From NCBI GenBank assembly GCA_023380995.1, contig JAMCTD010000020.1, forward strand, positions 1 to 7,811: a stretch of DNA of 7,811 bases. Reading direction: 5' to 3'. This document shows positions 1 through 7,811 of the stretch, in pieces. The translations under genes and the position numbers were made by a program. The first letter of the stretch is position 1; each line of letters starts with the position of its first letter. Source of the DNA: Patescibacteria group bacterium. GTDB lineage: Bacteria; Patescibacteria; Microgenomatia; Daviesbacterales; UBA10151. The notes beneath the pieces are model-generated. The model saw only the letters and a list, made by a program, of their open reading frames with translations, was not told the origin of the DNA and did no database searches.

Positions 1-204
1 TTAATATGTGCTGTCTCCAAAGAAGATTTACCAAATATCTTCGATGTATACTATAAGAGTAAGGATACTAGCATCCCGGGTATGGGCTTAGGGCTATTTC
101 TTTGTAAAAACATCATTGAAGCGCACAGAGGATCAATTCATATTAAATCAGCCTTAGGTAAAGGAACTATGGTGGAAATACAATTACCGGGAATAAAAAT
201 ATGA
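1..204 (+). CDS. Sensor histidine kinase, C-terminal fragment (5' end outside window)
   Basis: Frame 1 is open from the left edge to a TGA at 202-204, giving 67 residues. They match the end of a HATPase_c catalytic domain. An F-box-like stretch, IFDVYYKS, lies near residues 13-20, the G2 box GMGLGL at 27-32, then LFLCKNIIEAHRGSIHIKS and the closing GKGTMVEIQLP strand. In this family the domain binds ATP and phosphorylates a conserved His in a dimerisation domain, which then feeds a response regulator. The His region and any sensor domain lie outside the window, so the signal is unknown. The stop codon overlaps the start of the next gene in an ATGA, so the two are probably co-transcribed and translationally coupled. 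Confidence 0.88.
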   Translation, partial: LICAVSKEDLPNIFDVYYKSKDTSIPGMGLGLFLCKNIIEAHRGSIHIKSALGKGTMVEIQLPGIKI

Positions 205-1424
205 ATCAAGAAATGTTACCTCATTTTTATACGGGACTGTTAGTAGACGCAGAAATTTTGGATGGGTTAGAGAAAGTAGGCGGTGGATACGCTTCTCATC
301 CTGATTTTGAAGGATTTTCACAGGAATTTATCGGACGGGTTTTAACTTATCCCCTCAGAAAAACCAATATTGCTTTATCTATCGGCCCCTGCGCAGTTGG
401 AAAAACTGATGCTGCAAACCAATGGGTCATGAGGACCATACCTCAATTAACAGGTGAGTTTGAGATTGACTTCAAGCACAAACCGCTGCAAGTTAAGGCA
501 GAGAAATTGGAGATATACCGGATCCAGTGGACAGACGGCATTAAAGCTGCATTAAAATTGGGCATTATTCCTCCTTTAAAGTATGGCGAATGGTTACCAA
601 AACATCTGGATGAAGTCACAAACCTCATTATGAGGGCAGTAAATATTGCCAGAAAAGGCGCAAAAAATTTTCCGGGCATAGATAATAATTCTATTGGTAT
701 CATCGCAATAGACGGACCAGGGATTACAGCCACAAGAACTGAAGATGATATTGCAGAAGGAAGGCCGTATAGGGGTCTTAACAGATTATATACCCTTGTT
801 TGCCAACTAATGCAGGACCCTCTTATCCAACCCAATGTCTCAATTTTATCAACAATTACTGATGCTGCTTCTCAAAGACGCCGGTTGAGCGAGAGAGAAA
901 AACTTCCCAGTGATGCTAATATAAGGACATTAGCCCGTTGGTTTTCAAAAATGGGGCTGGTAATGGAAAGAAGTGAATTGAAGGCCATTGCTAAGGGATA
1001 CCCCACCAGCTTTGCCACTACTTTTGCTGCAACCGAAATAGCACGCCAAGCCGGACAATTGATGTTGGATTTAAGTGAACAAGAATCGCTATCTTACCCG
1101 CAAAAAAAAGAGATAGAATTAACAGAGGAAGAAAAAGCTTTATTAATTCGGGAGCAGGAACTTTTTAATCAAGGCGCAAACTTATTGTCACCGGCAGTTG
1201 ACGAACTTCAGGATATGAAAATGTCCTTACTGGGAAGGAAACTTTATCCTCATATCTTAAAAAGCGCAGGAGTTAGAGCAAGACAATCATTCACAGCTTC
1301 TAATAAAGATATTAACGCCCGGGGGTCTGAAGTAATACATACTCATCCGGGACAAACAGTGGACCGTAATTTAATCGACCGCATTTGGTTTGTAAATCCA
1401 GAACTACTGCGGGATGCTGCTTAA
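201..1424 (+). CDS. P-loop NTPase/kinase-like protein of unknown function
   Basis: This 407-residue protein is one I do not recognise as a named family. A Walker A motif, GPCAVGKT, sits at residues 62-69, after a hydrophobic strand (NIALSI). A Walker B-like strand, IGIIAIDGPG, lies at about 165-174, with Asp171 as the probable metal-coordinating residue. An Arg-rich stretch, RRRLSERE (226-233), could act as a lid or Arg finger. These parts resemble small-molecule or nucleotide kinases and AAA-like NTPases, but the substrate cannot be read from the sequence. The C-terminal third (about 300-407) is charged and helical, then holds a conserved-looking stretch, EVIHTHPGQTVDRNLIDRIWF. No signal peptide or membrane segment is visible. 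The ATG overlaps the kinase stop by 4 bp and has no Shine-Dalgarno, so coupled re-initiation decides this start. Gene is likely real; function is open. Confidence 0.85.
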   Translation: MNQEMLPHFYTGLLVDAEILDGLEKVGGGYASHPDFEGFSQEFIGRVLTYPLRKTNIALSIGPCAVGKTDAANQWVMRTIPQLTGEFEIDFKHKPLQVKAEKLEIYRIQWTDGIKAALKLGIIPPLKYGEWLPKHLDEVTNLIMRAVNIARKGAKNFPGIDNNSIGIIAIDGPGITATRTEDDIAEGRPYRGLNRLYTLVCQLMQDPLIQPNVSILSTITDAASQRRRLSEREKLPSDANIRTLARWFSKMGLVMERSELKAIAKGYPTSFATTFAATEIARQAGQLMLDLSEQESLSYPQKKEIELTEEEKALLIREQELFNQGANLLSPAVDELQDMKMSLLGRKLYPHILKSAGVRARQSFTASNKDINARGSEVIHTHPGQTVDRNLIDRIWFVNPELLRDAA

Positions 1425-2394: not shown

Positions 2395-3012
2395 ATGCCA
2401 ATCACTTTATACAGAAGACAAAAACAGATTTTAGATTTCATCAAGCAATACATTGATAAATATGGCTACTCACCGACCTTAGGTGAAATAGCAGAAAGTA
2501 TTGGTGTTTCTTCTTTGGCCACAGTACACGAACACCTGCAAACCCTTGTGCAAAAAGGTGTTATCAAAAAGTTTGAAGGAGCAGTACGGGGAATTGAGGT
2601 ATTGGACCAAAAAATTTCTTCTACACTGAAAGGGGTTGAGCTGCCTGTTTTAGGATTTATAGCAGCAGGTTCACCAATTATGCCCTTTACAGACCCTGAT
2701 GCCACTATTAAAGTTGCCCCAAATATGATTTCAGGTAAAAAGCGTTCGTTTGTTTTACAGGTTAAAGGTGATTCCATGATTGAGGATGGAATATTAGATG
2801 GGGATTATGTCATTATCGAGGAACAAAATACAGCAAATGACGGGGATATTGTGGTAGCTTTACTTAATAATGGCCTGGCTACTTTGAAAAGGTTTTTTAA
2901 GGAGGCAAACAGAATTAGGTTGGAACCAGCCAACTCATCCATGTCCCCCATTTATGCTACAGAAGTAAAAATACAAGGCAAGTGCGTCGGGGTTATCAGA
3001 AGATTCAGTTAG
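2395..3012 (+). CDS. lexA: LexA, SOS-response transcriptional repressor
   Basis: The 205-residue protein has the full LexA architecture, close to the usual length of about 200. A winged helix-turn-helix occupies residues 1-70 (SPTLGEIAESIGVSSLATVHEHLQ region), followed by the wing GAVRGIEVL. The self-cleavage site is Ala91-Gly92 in GFIAAGSP. The S24-type peptidase has Ser127 in VKGDSM and Lys165 in ATLKRFF as its catalytic pair, a spacing of 38 against 37 in E. coli. In known LexA proteins, RecA filaments on single-stranded DNA trigger cleavage and release DNA-repair genes; all the residues needed are present. The ATG at 2395 lies only about 14 bases after the predicted transcription start and has no Shine-Dalgarno. 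The Rad52-like gene upstream is a natural candidate target, though it has no visible copy of the operator. Confidence 0.95.
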   Translation: MPITLYRRQKQILDFIKQYIDKYGYSPTLGEIAESIGVSSLATVHEHLQTLVQKGVIKKFEGAVRGIEVLDQKISSTLKGVELPVLGFIAAGSPIMPFTDPDATIKVAPNMISGKKRSFVLQVKGDSMIEDGILDGDYVIIEEQNTANDGDIVVALLNNGLATLKRFFKEANRIRLEPANSSMSPIYATEVKIQGKCVGVIRRFS

Positions 3013-3051: not shown

Positions 3052-3672
3052 ATGCACCTTGATCTGATTTCCCTAATTAAAACCTTTGGATACCTGGGAA
3101 TTTTTACCATAGTTTTCCTGGAATCAGGACTTTTAATTGGATTCTTTTTCCCCGGAGATTCCCTGCTTTTTACTGCAGGGTTTTTGGCCTCACAAGGATT
3201 TTTGGATATAGGTCTTTTGATATTAGGATGTTTTGTCTTTGCAGTTTTAGGCGACAGCATTGGTTATTATATTGGAACCAAACTTGGTCCCCGAATTTTT
3301 ACAAGAGAAAACTCTTTCTTCTTCCACAAAAAAAACCTTGAAAGAGCACAAAAATTCTATGATAAGCACGGTGGTAAAACCATAATCTTAGCCAGATTTA
3401 TTCCGGTTATCAGGGCTTTTGCTCCGGTTGTAGCAGGAGCAGGCAAGATGGATTACAAACGGTTTGTCTCATTTAATCTGGTAGGAGGAGTTTTATGGGC
3501 GATCGGAGTAACCTCTGCAGGATACTTCCTAGGAAATCTTATTCCTGATGTTGATAAATATCTTCTTCCGATAATTGGTCTTATTATTTTTGTCTCAATT
3601 CTGCCAGTACTACATCATGCCTTAGTTGACGCAGAAATTAGGGCTAGTATAATAAAAAAGTTTAAGAAATAG
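3052..3672 (+). CDS. DedA-family (VTT/SNARE-associated domain) membrane protein
   Basis: This 206-residue integral membrane protein has the DedA/VTT-domain signature. It opens with a hydrophobic segment containing GIFTIVFLESGLLIGFFFPG, with acidic Glu24 and Asp36 (PGDSLLFTAGF). GDSIGYYIG follows at 67-75. The family's diagnostic block is at 115-149, RFIPVIRAFAPVVAGAGKM followed by F138, N142, G145-G146 and W149. It includes Arg115 and Arg121, which are the usual Arg positions of the block. Further hydrophobic segments lie near 148-165 and 172-190, with a basic tail IIKKFKK. DedA proteins support membrane homeostasis, and several act as flippases for undecaprenyl phosphate or phospholipids; the exact cargo here cannot be told. 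The gene starts 39 bp after lexA with its own promoter, so it need not be under the lexA promoter alone. Confidence 0.9.
   Translation: MHLDLISLIKTFGYLGIFTIVFLESGLLIGFFFPGDSLLFTAGFLASQGFLDIGLLILGCFVFAVLGDSIGYYIGTKLGPRIFTRENSFFFHKKNLERAQKFYDKHGGKTIILARFIPVIRAFAPVVAGAGKMDYKRFVSFNLVGGVLWAIGVTSAGYFLGNLIPDVDKYLLPIIGLIIFVSILPVLHHALVDAEIRASIIKKFKK
3626..3653 (+). promoter_or_regulatory. Promoter for rsmI inside the end of the dedA-family gene
   Basis: TTGACG (3626-3631), a 16-base spacer and a perfect TATAAT (3648-3653) lie within the last codons of the upstream gene. Transcription would begin near 3660, leaving a leader of about 32 bases before the rsmI ATG at 3692. The site lies in coding sequence, so chance is possible, but the hexamers and spacing are close to consensus and the position suits rsmI. 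Confidence 0.5.
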
Positions 3673-3691: not shown

Positions 3692-4354
3692 ATGCTGTAT
3701 ATTGTTCCTACACCTATTGGTAATTTAAAAGATATCACTTTAAGGGCGCTGGAAGTGTTAAAAGAGATTGATGGGATAATTTGTGAAGATACCAGAAGAA
3801 CTGCTTTACTTCTAAACCATTACCAAATAAAAAAACCGCTCCAGGTTTTAAATGATTACAATGAAACAAGAATGGTGCCAGCTATTTTGGAATGGTTGCG
3901 GAATGAAAATTGGGCCTTGGTTTCTGATGCAGGAACCCCGCTTGTTTCTGACCCAGGCTATAAGCTAGTCAGGGAATGTATCAACCAGGGGATTCCAGTA
4001 GACTCCCTTCCCGGCCCTTCCTCAGTGATCACAGCTCTTACTCTTTCCGACCTTCCCCCAGATAAGTTCATGTTTTTAGGATATCCTCCGGAAAAAAGCG
4101 GCCACAGAATGGACTTATTGAAAAAATTATCAATTATCCATTCTCAATTTTCAATTACCTATATTTTTTTTGTTTCACCTCATAAAATGTTAAGAACTTT
4201 GGAGGATATGAAATCAATTTTAGGTGATATTGAAATAACTTTAGCCCACGAACTGACAAAAGTTCATCAAAGTGTGAGAACAAAACTTGTAAGCAAATGG
4301 CAGGAAACTTTAGAAAACCCCAAAGGGGAGTACATTCTGCTTTTTAGGTCATAG
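3692..4354 (+). CDS. rsmI: RsmI, 16S rRNA (cytidine-1402 2'-O) methyltransferase
   Basis: RsmI uses S-adenosylmethionine to methylate the 2'-O of C1402 in the decoding centre of 16S rRNA. This 220-residue protein carries the tetrapyrrole-methylase-fold motifs in order: VPTPIGNLKDITLRALEVL (5-23), CEDTRRT (31-37), NDYNE (54-58), VSDAGTPLVSDPG (77-89), LPGPSS (106-111), FMFLGYPPEKSG (126-137) and HELTKVHQ (186-193). It ends at the KGEYILLF strand and lacks the C-terminal extension of the E. coli enzyme (286 residues). Two oddities: an insertion of about four residues, encoded by a repeat, near 147-155, and VSPHK (161-165) where the family usually has ESPHR, so a conserved Glu is Val. The methyl-donor site looks intact, so activity is likely. 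The ATG lies 19 bp after the dedA-family stop, without a Shine-Dalgarno. Confidence 0.94.
   Translation: MLYIVPTPIGNLKDITLRALEVLKEIDGIICEDTRRTALLLNHYQIKKPLQVLNDYNETRMVPAILEWLRNENWALVSDAGTPLVSDPGYKLVRECINQGIPVDSLPGPSSVITALTLSDLPPDKFMFLGYPPEKSGHRMDLLKKLSIIHSQFSITYIFFVSPHKMLRTLEDMKSILGDIEITLAHELTKVHQSVRTKLVSKWQETLENPKGEYILLFRS
4130..4158. repeat. CAATT-type AT-rich repeat inside rsmI
   Basis: The stretch contains CAATTATC, then CTCAATTTTCAATTAC: three closely spaced CAATT units. It encodes SIIHSQFSI of RsmI, at a point where the protein is longer than the E. coli enzyme. Repeats of this look are more usual between genes; here the reading frame is kept. Confidence 0.45.
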
Positions 4355-4355
4355 G

Positions 4356-4670
4356 TCAGGGAGAATGTATTTGACGATATAAATCCTTCTGCAAACTAAG
4401 ATGAGTCTTGACTATACCCTGCAGTCCATTTGTTTTTAAGAATCGCAGGGTTTCTCTTGGTTGCCTTAAGGCACATTCAGCAAAACCAATAGGTAAAGCG
4501 AAGGCAGTGACAATATGAGTTGCTACCATATCATAATTTAAAGTCTTAACCTCCGAAAGGGAAAAACGAGGAAGATACTCCATCATTTTTTTATGCGATT
4601 TTACAGGAGCAGCAGGAAGTGTATCAATATGATCAATCTTATTTATTAGCTTTTTAATATTCCTTTCCAT
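4356..4670 (-). CDS. Small hypothetical protein (104 residues)
   Basis: I do not recognise the family. The product is basic and probably mostly helical: a Lys-rich start (MERNIKKLINKIDHIDTLP), a middle FSLSEVKTLNYDMVATHIVTAF, and a C-terminal half with ECALRQPRETLRFLKTNGLQGI and TH near 84-92. It has a single cysteine (residue 67) and no signal peptide, membrane segment or metal-binding cluster, so it is probably cytoplasmic. It follows the PEP-synthase-like gene by 25 bp on the same strand and converges with rsmI, with one base between the stop codons. A perfect TATAAT lies seven bases upstream of the ATG. The length, the promoter element and the lack of a competing gene on the other strand support it being real. 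Confidence 0.6.
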   Translation of the reverse strand: MERNIKKLINKIDHIDTLPAAPVKSHKKMMEYLPRFSLSEVKTLNYDMVATHIVTAFALPIGFAECALRQPRETLRFLKTNGLQGIVKTHLSLQKDLYRQIHSP

Positions 4671-4695: not shown

Positions 4696-6189
4696 CTAAC
4701 TTTTTCTTAAAAACATCCTCCTTTCTGTCTGATTTAATAGCTCATGGATAGAATGAGCCTCATACCTTTCCACCACCACTCCATAAACTCCCCTTTCCAC
4801 TAAAAATTCCAAAACTTTTGGATTAAGGGCCAGGCTTCCATAGGCTATAAAGGGCATTCTTAACTTATGCAGTATTTTCACCCCATCCTCTAAAAATTTA
4901 AGCAAGCCTTCCACCTCGTTTTTATAGAATGCCAGGTTTTCTTCTAAAGGATCAAAACCGTTTAAATGAGCTATTAATTCATCCAGATTTAACACTACTC
5001 CATCAATTCCTGCCAAAAGATAATCCTCTAAATTAACAATATTTTCCAAAACTGCAGCTTCCATTAAAATCTTAAGGGAATTTTTTCTCATCAGTTTTTT
5101 AATAGCCAATTCCCTTTTAACTTGTAAAAGTTCACTGATACCCCGCACATAAGGAATTACCACATGAACATTAAGTAACGCTTTTTTGTGACGGACAAAA
5201 TCCAAAGCATCCACTAAGGGATTAAACAGGCTGCTTTGATGCAAAAGACGCAAAGCTCCTCTGACTTTACCCATTCCCTCAGACTTGTCTGCCAGCTTAA
5301 AAAACACTGGTAAATTGGGAAAAGTTTCAGCAGATTCCACTAACTTAAGCACTAATTTTTCAAAAGAATCCTGAGGCTTATTTAAGTCAAATATTTTCTC
5401 AGAAGCAATATAGACCCCATCAGCATCTTTTTCCAAAGCAAATCCTGTTGAAAGGTCAAAAAATACTTTAATTGTGCTTTGCTTTTTGCTTTGAGAAATA
5501 CCTTTAACAGGAGGCTTCGTAGCTATTTCATTTGTTGAAGTGGCATTTTGTGGAGTATAAGGCTTTATGCCAACTAATTTAACTGTACTATCCAAAACCC
5601 ATTCATGTTCATGAGGAATAAACAATTTTTTGTTGGAAGTTTGAACAATTTCTGCTATTTTTTTCAGATCACTTGGAGAAAGCTTGCCAAACTTACAATT
5701 TATTACCACATCATCCTGCAGGCTATCTTTAAAAGCTGTTCCAAAAGCTTCTATCTTTTTAGCAAAAACAACTATTTTAGGTTCTAAATTCTCAGTAACT
5801 CCCGGATAAAACCCGTTATTCCATAACCTACTCTTAATTTGTTCCAGCCATAAATTTAACAGGGTAAGCCACAAATCTTTTACTGATTTTATTTTTACTC
5901 CATTTACAAAAAAGCTTTTGTGCTGACCAATCTCTTTGATTAAAATTTGTGGGACAGGAATTTTATTGATTTCTTTTTGGATTAAAGTTATTGATTGGGT
6001 AAAAACTTCTTTTGTGCCAAAATTGTAGTGTTCTAAAATAGTTTTTAATTTTAAATTAGGAGCTGTTACAACTATTCCTGAACTTACAGGCAAACCGCTT
6101 CTTAATAATTTTCCCAATGTAACATTTAGAGAGCCAAAAACAGGCGCATCTTCTTCTGTCAATAATCTTATGGGCAGAACTTCTATCAT
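4696..6189 (-). CDS. Degenerate phosphoenolpyruvate-synthase-like protein lacking the phospho-His domain
   Basis: The 497-residue protein is a reduced relative of PEP synthase (PpsA, about 790 residues, which makes PEP from pyruvate and ATP). Residues 18-43 match the PPDK_N opening (GSLNVTLGKLLRSGLPVSSGIVVTA). The VRSSAT-ED block is gone, but 95-212 still follow the ATP-grasp part up to LVGIKPYTP, aligned with the usual QARPIT. The swivelling domain with the phosphorylated His (TSHAAI) is absent, replaced by a polar linker (about 213-238). Residues 239-497 match the PEP/pyruvate barrel: IKVFFDLS; VRGALR with Arg310 and Arg314 kept; HVVIPYVR; and LMEAA with metal-ligand-like Glu377. The catalytic Cys of CGQ-PS is Tyr450 (AYGSLA), the GSND motif is NLDE, and the Arg of GLLRAEF is Ser263. 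The reading frame is intact, so this looks like a maintained pseudoenzyme, perhaps regulatory. Its own role is unknown. Confidence 0.82.
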   Translation of the reverse strand: MIEVLPIRLLTEEDAPVFGSLNVTLGKLLRSGLPVSSGIVVTAPNLKLKTILEHYNFGTKEVFTQSITLIQKEINKIPVPQILIKEIGQHKSFFVNGVKIKSVKDLWLTLLNLWLEQIKSRLWNNGFYPGVTENLEPKIVVFAKKIEAFGTAFKDSLQDDVVINCKFGKLSPSDLKKIAEIVQTSNKKLFIPHEHEWVLDSTVKLVGIKPYTPQNATSTNEIATKPPVKGISQSKKQSTIKVFFDLSTGFALEKDADGVYIASEKIFDLNKPQDSFEKLVLKLVESAETFPNLPVFFKLADKSEGMGKVRGALRLLHQSSLFNPLVDALDFVRHKKALLNVHVVIPYVRGISELLQVKRELAIKKLMRKNSLKILMEAAVLENIVNLEDYLLAGIDGVVLNLDELIAHLNGFDPLEENLAFYKNEVEGLLKFLEDGVKILHKLRMPFIAYGSLALNPKVLEFLVERGVYGVVVERYEAHSIHELLNQTERRMFLRKS

Positions 6190-6231: not shown

Positions 6232-6276
6232 ATTGTAAATTGCAATTTTGAACTTTGCATTTTGAATTTTAAATTG
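6232..6276. repeat. AT-rich periodic repeat overlapping the DUF192 gene's stop codon
   Basis: The stretch is built of recurring units such as AAATTGCAATTTTGAA, TTTGCATTTTGAA and TTTTAAATTG, with a spacing of about 8-15 bases and partial dyad symmetry. It lies between two minus-strand genes and includes the TAA stop of the DUF192 gene (6269-6271). It resembles the CAATT-type repeat inside rsmI. Whether it acts in termination, mRNA stability or nothing cannot be told from sequence. Confidence 0.5.
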
Positions 6277-6754
6277 TTTTAACCATATCCCCTATTTTTA
6301 TATTTAGCCTGTCAATTGTCCCTCCATTTACCTCCAACACCTGATCTACATCTTCCTTTGGTGTATAAATTGGCAAAGAAGCTTCAACTTGTCCGGGAAC
6401 CGGAGGTTGGGCACCCTTAGTAAAATCCACAACTATCCCCCCTCTAATCCAGATAAAGTCCAAGGGGAAACTTAACCCTTTCATCCAAAATGGATACTTA
6501 TCTGTTTTCGGAAAAATAAACAGCATACCTTCATCTGATGCCAGGCTTTCTTTTCCTCCCAAACCTTTATTCCTTTTAGCCTGTGTATCAGCAACCTCTA
6601 CATTAAACTTAATATCATTAATTTGCACTTGTTTAAGTATTGGATTTTGGGGCAAAAAGGGCAATTGGGGAGCGGTTGTTTTTTGACTAAATAAAACAAT
6701 AGCAACCGCAGTCACTGCAATCAAAAGCACAGCTTGAATGGTAAATTTTTTCAT
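6269..6754 (-). CDS. Membrane-anchored DUF192 protein
   Basis: The 161-residue product has an N-terminal membrane anchor or signal peptide (KK then hydrophobic residues, about 4-23), a Pro-rich spacer (27-41), and a DUF192 domain (about 46-159). Family hallmarks are FNVEVADTQAKRNKGLGG (50-67), EGMLFIFP (75-82), FWMKGLSFPLDFIWI (89-103) and the closing VLEVNGG and IKIGDMV. The domain is widespread in bacteria and archaea and small; its biochemical role is not established. The sequence predicts a domain outside the cytoplasmic membrane. It lies between a secreted-type nuclease 67 bp upstream and the PEP-synthase-like gene 79 bp downstream, all on the same strand. GATGGG just before the ATG is at most a weak Shine-Dalgarno. 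Confidence 0.9.
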   Translation of the reverse strand: MKKFTIQAVLLIAVTAVAIVLFSQKTTAPQLPFLPQNPILKQVQINDIKFNVEVADTQAKRNKGLGGKESLASDEGMLFIFPKTDKYPFWMKGLSFPLDFIWIRGGIVVDFTKGAQPPVPGQVEASLPIYTPKEDVDQVLEVNGGTIDRLNIKIGDMVKTI

Positions 6755-6821: not shown

Positions 6822-7403
6822 TTACTTACATTTTTTCCAAAGACCCCTGTTATTTTCCCTTGCCTGTCTTTCAGCTTCTAAAAATTGATCTGCAAATTTT
6901 ACATCAGGAGGGTAGGTTGAAACTTTGGCAAACCCTTCTCTAACTAAATAATCATTTACAAAAAGCTTTTGCCCGTTATCCAAAGGCAAATAAATAAGCC
7001 TTAAAATCCTGTTATATTTATCTGTCTCAGAAACGTCTTTTTGCATAATTACCACTTTCCCGGTCAGCAAGCTTTTTGTTTCATTTGAAGCTTCTTTGCC
7101 AAAACAGCCAACAGGCCTTCTTGGGTCAACAGTCTCAGGAGTATCTATTCCTATAAAACGCACCCTTCTACCGTCTGCCAGCTCGATTGTATCCCCGTCA
7201 ATAACCTTGGTAACCAAAGCCTGCTCGCCATTAGTATATGCAGAAGCAGTTGCAGTAGGTAAGCTTTCAGCTAAAGGAGCATTTGTTGAAGTTGGAACAA
7301 TAACAGGATTTGCGGGTAGTTTTAAACTAAACCACAAAAGGCTAAAACCTAAAATAATAATTAAAAAACAAGCTATAACTAATAATTTAGTATTAGACCA
7401 CAT
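6822..7403 (-). CDS. Membrane-anchored thermonuclease (staphylococcal nuclease-like)
   Basis: The 193-residue protein carries an N-terminal membrane segment (about 7-27), a Thr/Ser/Ala/Pro-rich linker (30-57) and an SNase domain (about 61-191). Catalytic positions known from the S. aureus enzyme are present: Asp69 and Asp71 in VIDGDT, Arg82 in RRVRFIGIDTPE, Asp87 and Glu90 in the same block, and Arg132 in DKYNRILR. The end AREN-RGLW is also typical. Such enzymes cut DNA and RNA in a calcium-dependent way to 3'-phosphate products. The anchor places the domain outside the cell membrane, where it could break down environmental or host nucleic acid for uptake (an inference). It follows the CAP-domain gene by 25 bp and precedes the DUF192 gene, so the three probably form one transcription unit. 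Confidence 0.94.
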   Translation of the reverse strand: MWSNTKLLVIACFLIIILGFSLLWFSLKLPANPVIVPTSTNAPLAESLPTATASAYTNGEQALVTKVIDGDTIELADGRRVRFIGIDTPETVDPRRPVGCFGKEASNETKSLLTGKVVIMQKDVSETDKYNRILRLIYLPLDNGQKLFVNDYLVREGFAKVSTYPPDVKFADQFLEAERQARENNRGLWKKCK

Positions 7404-7428: not shown

Positions 7429-7811
7429 CTAATCAGAAAACACTTGTGTAAACATTTTGCCGTATATGCCTCCATCTAAAACACCTATCCCAACCTTGTT
7501 AAAATCAGGGGATAAAATATTAGCCCTATGGCCTTCTGAATTCATTAATCCTTTGTGAGCAAGTTCCACACTTGGAGCATAAGCTAAATTTTCCCCTATC
7601 ACTAAAAAATCAACACTGGCATTTAAAGCTCTGTCTGCCACAGTTTTTCCCTCCAGGGAATAATGGGAGAAGTAACCCTTTTTAAACATATCCCCGCTAT
7701 GGCCTCTAGCTACGGCCTGAAGCTTCTGATCAAAAACTAAAGCTTTTAACCCTCTGCCGGTTCTTTCTTTGTTAACTAACTCAAACATCAGAAAACGCGA
7801 TGTTTGAGTTA
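7429..7811 (-). CDS. CAP-domain (SCP/PR1, YkwD-like) extracellular protein, 5' end outside window
   Basis: The frame stays open to the right edge; the ATG at 7788 is probably internal, because the CAP domain is already under way there (FELVNKERTGRGLKALVFD). Counting from that Met, the family residues are His42 (FSHYS), Glu66 (GENLAY), Glu85 and His87 (NSEGHRANIL), followed by the strand VGIGVLDGG. The aromatic residue usual before NSxGHR is Leu81. CAP proteins are secreted or surface-bound, and bacterial YkwD-like forms are linked to spores, envelopes and host contact, but their activity is mostly undefined. The missing 5' part probably encodes a signal peptide or anchor. The last bases of the window belong to an inverted repeat, so the first few residues read from the edge (TQTSRFL) may be artefactual. 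Confidence 0.9.
   Translation of the reverse strand, partial: TQTSRFLMFELVNKERTGRGLKALVFDQKLQAVARGHSGDMFKKGYFSHYSLEGKTVADRALNASVDFLVIGENLAYAPSVELAHKGLMNSEGHRANILSPDFNKVGIGVLDGGIYGKMFTQVFSD
7777..7811. repeat. Perfect 13-bp inverted repeat ending at the window edge
   Basis: TAACTCAAACATC (7777-7789), a 9-base loop (7790-7798) and GATGTTTGAGTTA (7799-7811) pair at all 13 positions. The right arm ends on the last base of the window. The left arm lies in the conserved CAP coding sequence (FELVN), so the right arm is a reverse copy of coding DNA. This pattern is more typical of a fold-back amplification chimera or contig-end artefact than of a biological signal. Confidence 0.85.

Follow-up and report, generated by a model that had tools for sequence, protein, structure and literature searches.

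The question raised by this locus is what a descendant of PEP synthase (PpsA) may be doing after it has lost the domain and most of the residues that the PpsA mechanism needs. The gene lies on the minus strand at 4696..6189 of the stretch of DNA analysed here (7,811 nucleotides in total; hereafter, the window), in an open frame of 497 aa, the coordinates including the stop codon. The initial annotation, made from the sequence alone, read the product as a PpsA-like pseudoenzyme with a PPDK_N-type opening, remnants of an ATP-grasp part and a PEP/pyruvate barrel, and with a polar linker in place of the phospho-His domain. As far as the barrel, the missing His domain and the linker are concerned, this reading stood; the PPDK_N-like opening is indicated by weak pairwise matches, with which the alignment to PpsA and the fold matches of the whole model agree, and not by Pfam, as no PPDK_N match was found in the protein.

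The N-terminal part (residues 1-212; 5554..6189, minus strand) is a shrunken, PPDK_N-type ATP-grasp remnant, as judged by alignments and by whole-model fold matches. In the alignments it lacks the GGK lysine, the RSSATAED loop, the GLGE region and the QTRP motif of PpsA, so that no intact set of nucleotide-binding ATP-grasp motifs is left, and it retains a P-x-x-x-E-W element at residues 192-197. A variable polar linker follows (residues 213-237; 5479..5553, minus strand), which differs in length among relatives and has pLDDT <50 at residues 215-234 of the model. It stands in place of the phospho-His domain, for which the protein has no Pfam match (PF00391) and whose TSHAA site in PpsA falls in a gap of the alignment. 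The remaining residues, 238-497 (4699..5478, minus strand), form a TIM barrel of the PEP/pyruvate type that has lost the catalytic residues of PpsA.

The barrel scores 49.2 bits against PRK06464 (cut-off 598) and 44.7 bits against TIGR01418 (cut-off 739.75), both less than one tenth of these NCBIfam whole-protein cut-offs for PEP synthase. PEP-utilizers_C (PF02896) is the sole Pfam signal, at 17.1 bits with a gathering score of 22.8; the same profile is matched at E<=0.01 by 18 of 20 family members, and the fold match is strong. Among PDB entries, the PpsA structure 9dae matches the protein with an E value of 2.4e-9, and PpsA chains align to the barrel and, weakly, to the first ~50 residues. 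A first structure model, built from 48 alignment rows, had a pLDDT of 70.5 and a poor barrel, and was replaced by a second one from 58 more diverse rows (pLDDT 83.9, pTM 0.52), in which the orientation of the domains is not to be trusted. Foldseek matched the whole model to PpsA (2ols) and to the ATP-binding domain 5hv6, the latter match probably falling on the N-terminal remnant. Together with the family described below, these profile, PDB and model matches identify the frame as a real two-domain PpsA descendant composed of an ATP-grasp remnant, a short linker and a barrel without catalytic residues.

How much of the active site is left was assessed in a table of 166 family rows against 29 PpsA rows; many of the family rows are near kin, and 101 are left at 75% identity. 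The roles of the PpsA residues (Mg-binding, substrate, catalytic) are those known from work on PPDK, PpsA and Enzyme I. The proposals that the catalytic Cys has become Tyr450 (4840..4842, minus strand) and that NLDE (401-404; 4978..4989, minus strand) occupies the position of the G-S/T-N-D motif agree with the alignment, and so does the retention of Arg310 and Arg314, both of which align with conserved PpsA Arg. Position 450 is not fixed, being Tyr in 0.60 and Cys in 0.07 of the family rows. Glu377 (5059..5061, minus strand), which had been regarded as the retained catalytic Glu, turned out to be something else: it is Glu in a fraction of 1.0 of the family rows, and the PpsA rows have Met there, also in a fraction of 1.0. 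The Mg-binding Glu of PpsA aligns with Ala379 (5053..5055, minus strand), a position occupied by Ala (0.75), Cys (0.14) or Ser (0.07) in the family. Altogether, positions 263, 298, 379, 403, 404, 414 and 450 are changed with respect to PpsA and Arg310 is kept; of the barrel catalytic set (Cys, Mg-binding Glu/Asp, Asn and substrate Arg), the metal-binding Glu and the Asn-Asp pair are altered in the family, as are three of the four substrate Arg, one of them to Lys. The alignment and the residue table thus bear out the view that the protein lacks the domain and the residues on which the mechanism of PpsA depends.

Loss of the old chemistry may, on one hand, mean a new one. It could be supposed that the protein is a new enzyme, whose rebuilt site (Glu377, Glu382, Asn383, Asn401, Glu404, Lys298, Asp301 and Arg310) acts on a carboxylate ligand in some different reaction, as is the case for barrels elsewhere in the superfamily. 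Several pocket positions have indeed switched from the PpsA residue and are nevertheless near-invariant in the 166 rows (M377E 1.0, G401N 0.98, D404E 0.97, R298K 0.97, and a new E382, 1.0), which argues for a retained ligand site, and acyl-CoA lyases and pyruvate kinase, too, are similar to the model in fold. On the other hand, the changes at the Asn-Asp pair, at three substrate Arg and at the Glu that binds the metal speak against catalysis, and conserved positions of the family are not enriched on the catalytic face (odds ratio 1.1-1.2, p 0.52-0.84), unlike those of PpsA (odds ratio 3.1-6.3, p 3e-4 to 6e-7), although this test is crude, its loop boundaries having been drawn by us. Because conservation is not focused there, a scaffold or interaction role is favoured, and we consider a new enzyme unlikely.

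The frame is not private to the window. When 5.8 billion proteins were searched, 347 homologues were found at E<=1e-3. The 120 matches listed have lengths of 492-579 aa and span 99-100% of the query; they include several from Ca. Daviesbacteria and show no precomputed Pfam domain apart from PEP-utilizers_C. Such uniform length and near-full cover among the relatives indicate a family of fixed architecture. A profile search yielded 352 proteins and reached no wider family among the 120 matches listed. In the Daviesbacteria-bearing order, to which G001 with the locus L003 belongs, 41 of 45 genomes match the profile; since G033 does so only via an 813-aa PpsA, 40 of 45 are carriers, including those with split frames (G016, G017, G024) and one with a short frame (G029, 356 aa), which may reflect assembly errors or loss. 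Class-wide, 316 of 373 genomes match. Among the matches listed outside the order, it is the barrel part of the query that aligns, in PpsA-type frames of mostly 740-850 aa and in a few shorter ones (201-634 aa); the ~500-aa pseudoenzyme form was not found among the matches listed in the class searches.

The family also has a stable neighbourhood. In the window, a DUF192 protein (6269..6754) lies immediately upstream of the pseudoenzyme, preceded in the same presumed operon by an SNase-type nuclease (6822..7403) and by a CAP-domain protein cut by the window end (7429..7809), all on the minus strand. On the plus strand lie the convergent TP_methylase (3692..4354), which we take to be RsmI and which is an anchor common to the sister orders, and two further anchors, a VTT-domain membrane protein (3052..3672) and LexA (2395..3012). 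These assignments rest on Pfam and on synteny. Across 24 loci, the genes typically follow one another as CvpA/CAP, SNase, DUF192 and pseudoenzyme, then convergent RsmI, VTT and LexA: DUF192 is upstream in 23/23 testable loci, SNase is present in 22/22 and CAP in 18/22, and RsmI is downstream on the opposite strand in 21/22. A CvpA (Colicin_V)-CAP fusion was found in L003, the one full-length relative tested by Pfam. The gap between DUF192 and the pseudoenzyme is -26 to +7 bases in all 21 adjacent pairs, and -1 in nine of them, with starts assigned mechanically; the 79 bases in the window are wider than in the relatives.

Two other frames of the window deserve mention. Just 3' of the pseudoenzyme, 4356-4670 (minus strand) holds a 104-aa frame with no Pfam match and no tblastn match across 24 related loci. 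At 201-1424 (plus strand) there is a 407-aa protein with a P-loop-like motif recognized by eye and no Pfam match, which has one relative, in L005, at 34% identity.

That the frame is kept open by selection, as the initial annotation had proposed, is a view that fared well. For three pairs of relatives, dN was 0.18-0.24 and dS 1.25-2.4, giving a dN/dS below about 0.2, with dS near saturation in all three; these are the pairs that gave values out of the 12 closest pairs and four window pairs tried, the others, including the window's, being saturated. Between the window and L001, 26% of first, 16% of second and 54% of third codon positions differ, and the third-position bias is also seen between the window and L008. 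Order-wide presence, low dN/dS, third-position bias and the conserved operon together support the conclusion that purifying selection holds the frame open, as far as sequence comparison can tell. Common descent with PpsA, loss of catalytic residues and such selection coincide here, as expected of a pseudoenzyme derived from PpsA. One might still regard the gene as a decaying, functionless relic, considering that a domain and the active site are lost and that three of the 40 carriers have split frames and one a short frame; a frame open in most of the 40 genomes, the strong constraint on amino acids and the order-wide coupling to the operon make this highly improbable. Recent decay of ppsA was also considered, and is rejected by the order-wide presence of the pseudoenzyme form.

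Where, then, did the gene come from? Homologues of intact length at the corresponding locus do exist, in sister orders and not in close relatives, which implies that the loss is old. Of 15 sister-order loci, picked for contig size and score, 13 have a full-length PpsA-type gene with RsmI downstream and convergent, other genes lying between, and LexA was found in eight. The genes around the sister-locus ppsA presumably include those for HolA, a phosphomannomutase-like protein, a sugar isomerase, enolase, phosphoglycerate mutase and an acetyl-CoA synthetase-like protein. As the RsmI/LexA context is common to both, the pseudoenzyme is likely the positional heir of the sister-order ppsA near rsmI.

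Trees point in the same direction. In a tree of barrel columns, whose bootstrap was unsettled, 17 pseudoenzymes form one clade (100/100) that joins 18 PpsA rows, 13 from loci of the class and five from a phylum search, at 97/95. Ten intact PpsA of the order itself group instead with four proteobacterial and nine other phylum PpsA (100/100), and a tree in which the pseudoenzymes share a clade with PpsA from within the order was rejected (AU p 0.017) in a test of two trees, the hypothesis having been framed after the first tree was seen. Given the long pseudoenzyme stem and the unsettled bootstrap, long-branch attraction may have affected the placement. L021, L022 and L023, whose frames are split or cut (none >450 aa), were left out of alignments and trees, as was L097, a copy of L033. 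The shared locus and the trees, taken together, support the view that a ppsA was gutted and repurposed in the ancestor of the Daviesbacteria-bearing order.

Some full-length genes of the sister lineage have lost catalytic residues as well. Two of the sister-order loci just described, L070:6456-8750 and L073:7526-9835, which were dropped at first by the G-S/T-N-D motif filter and added as His-less after inspection, encode full-length PEP synthases with Pro or Leu for the carrier His and with further losses; their genomes (G285 and G199) each hold a second match to the same query. With a third such protein, P0142, they make up the full-length His-less set P0140, P0141 and P0142, which have Leu, Pro and Gln in place of the carrier His and other catalytic losses. 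These three sit nearest the pseudoenzymes in trees, at 99/99 with catalytic columns removed (a tree that included 12 PpsA rows from outside the class and, from the 120 relatives of L073, 11 proteins), and one His-less tree left out eleven PpsA rows. It is possible, judging by these sequences, that P0140, P0141 and P0142 are intermediates toward the pseudoenzyme. The ladder shape of the His-less rows may be a product of long-branch attraction, and a clade of the three with the intact P0143 is not rejected (p 0.43), so that an independent loss of the carrier His is possible. L073 and its relatives make up a set of 120, of which 115 are intact at 13 sites.

Does the pseudoenzyme have anything to do with PEP? 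The initial annotation suggested that it may regulate a functional PpsA, and this could not be upheld. Such a regulator or partner would share ancestry and fold with its target, and a full-length PpsA, meaning one over the TIGR01418 cut-off, is present in 22 of 45 genomes, that is, in 20 of 40 carriers and two of five non-carriers. When the split PpsA of G021 and G026 are counted, the numbers become 22/40 and 2/5, which is no association (Fisher p 0.65), and 18 of 40 carriers are left without a full-length PpsA by that cut-off, below which G010, for example, has a frame of 768 aa that matches both ATP-grasp and phospho-His. Moreover, the order's PpsA is of a different type where sampled (ten in the tree), and it is mostly enolase-adjacent and away from the pseudoenzyme locus. 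We hold a role as PpsA regulator to be improbable, and it was rejected for the absent co-occurrence.

Among the 45 genomes of the order, enolase is matched in 29, pyruvate kinase in 11 and RpoB, our sole control for genome completeness, in 44; ATP-type PEPCK is matched in none of the 45. In thirteen of the 40 carriers, none of enolase, full-length PpsA and pyruvate kinase was matched, and RpoB was found in all thirteen, some of which hold separate ATP-grasp or phospho-His frames. With so many carriers lacking matches to these enzymes, the pseudoenzyme is unlikely to serve PEP synthesis or to work with a partner PpsA. A PEP synthase gene is reported from another Microgenomates genome (PMC7143001).

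Of the 22 genomes of the order with an intact PpsA, 16 have an enolase match no more than 2 kb from it (seen in G001, G003, G018, G019, G020, G034, G037, G038, G041, G043 and others), away from the pseudoenzyme locus, as if the two had been acquired as a pair. The enolase beside PpsA is mostly low-scoring. An EPSP_synthase/MurA match, from a family whose members use PEP, occurs in 13 genomes (G002, G004, G006, G009, G010, G011, G015, G017, G023, G024, G025, G030 and G042) in which enolase, full-length PpsA, pyruvate kinase and ATP-type PEPCK all went unmatched.

It is conceivable that the missing parts are supplied in trans, the pseudoenzyme being the acceptor barrel in a split PEP synthase, with separate genes for the ATP-grasp and the phospho-His domain. 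Stand-alone ATP-grasp and phospho-His frames do occur in some genomes, e.g., G018, G014, G009 and G045. However, the barrel is without the catalytic Glu, Asn and Asp and has Cys in just 0.07 of rows, PF00391 found no match in 13 of 40 carriers, and G045 has the split genes and no pseudoenzyme. This is the least credible of the explanations considered, and was rejected because of the active-site loss.

Stand-alone ATP-grasp frames (245-286 aa) with separate phospho-His frames (113-157 aa), observed at G018:C1:336010-337190 and in G014, G038 and G010:C3, have sequences as of a split PEP-synthase-like system. Elsewhere, L120 (G414:C1:76000-95900) holds tandem proteins of 352-915 aa with phospho-His matches beside a stand-alone 311-aa ATP-grasp PPDK_N protein, and match positions indicate similar arrays in G394:C8, G440:C6, G405:C6, G389:C2 and G429:C43. 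By Pfam, two of the L120 frames have only a C-terminal PF00391 behind ~400 unannotated residues. Arrays of this type look like one kinase serving many carrier proteins, going by their matches.

What remains is the reading that we find rather probable, namely a remodelled ppsA descendant that no longer catalyses and now serves for ligand binding or as a scaffold, coupled to DUF192; its origin is much surer than its function. The source is the ppsA that much of the remaining class carries close to rsmI, VTT and lexA. In the order's ancestor, this gene lost the phospho-His domain, about one third of the ATP-grasp domain and the catalytic residues of the barrel, and the remnant came to lie in a new CvpA/CAP-SNase-DUF192 operon, under purifying selection ever since, as the results above support. 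Its product is predicted to be cytoplasmic and non-catalytic, and the old barrel pocket may have been rebuilt around the near-invariant Lys298, Asp301, Arg310, Arg314, Glu377, Glu382, Asn383, Asn401 and Glu404, either to bind a small ligand or merely as a stable scaffold. The two domains could then serve as a module for interaction or sensing, produced along with the DUF192 protein, in a function presumably independent of PEP metabolism.

A more far-reaching version is offered tentatively, and we would sooner expect it to fail than to hold. It sees a staged series at one conserved locus of this class of uncultured bacteria, from intact PpsA through His-less full-length PpsA to the two-domain remnant with a rebuilt, near-invariant pocket. 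The remnant would be a ligand-sensing cytoplasmic subunit of a CvpA/CAP-SNase-DUF192 envelope operon, unrelated to PEP. In some genomes, a PpsA-enolase pair gained by horizontal transfer would have taken the place of the functional PpsA, which others would have given up.

Several points make this family worth attention. It is order-wide in small genomes that are otherwise much reduced, the locus may offer a natural series from enzyme to non-enzyme, and the pseudoenzyme is a starting point for the function of the DUF192 operon. The name PEP synthase may mislead in such genomes; one relative, P0091, is named 'Phosphoenolpyruvate s...'. In the open-access literature searched, we found no description of a pseudoenzyme of the PEP-synthase/PPDK family and no paper joining Daviesbacteria, or pseudoenzymes, with PEP synthase; the protein is thus a conserved pseudoenzyme from a family in which we found none described.

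Set against known systems, the differences are plain. PpsA (TIGR01418/PRK06464; 2ols, 9dae, 8a8e) is ~750-830 aa long, whereas the pseudoenzyme has 497 aa, an ATP-grasp part of ~212 residues and no phospho-His domain, and its catalytic Cys, Glu, Asn and Asp and most substrate Arg are changed. The ATP-binding domain of rifampin phosphotransferase (5hv6) resembles the model in fold, probably through the N-terminal remnant; the pseudoenzyme has neither the PpsA ATP-binding motifs nor a rifampin-binding domain. Compared to PTS Enzyme I and PPDK, it lacks the His carrier, the catalytic Cys and the metal site. There is also a likeness to the full-length His-less PpsA of the sister lineage, which occupy the corresponding locus (L070, L073), have lost catalytic residues and are nearest in the trees; unlike the pseudoenzyme, P0140, P0141 and P0142 keep all three Pfam domains by precomputed annotation, and the catalytic Cys.
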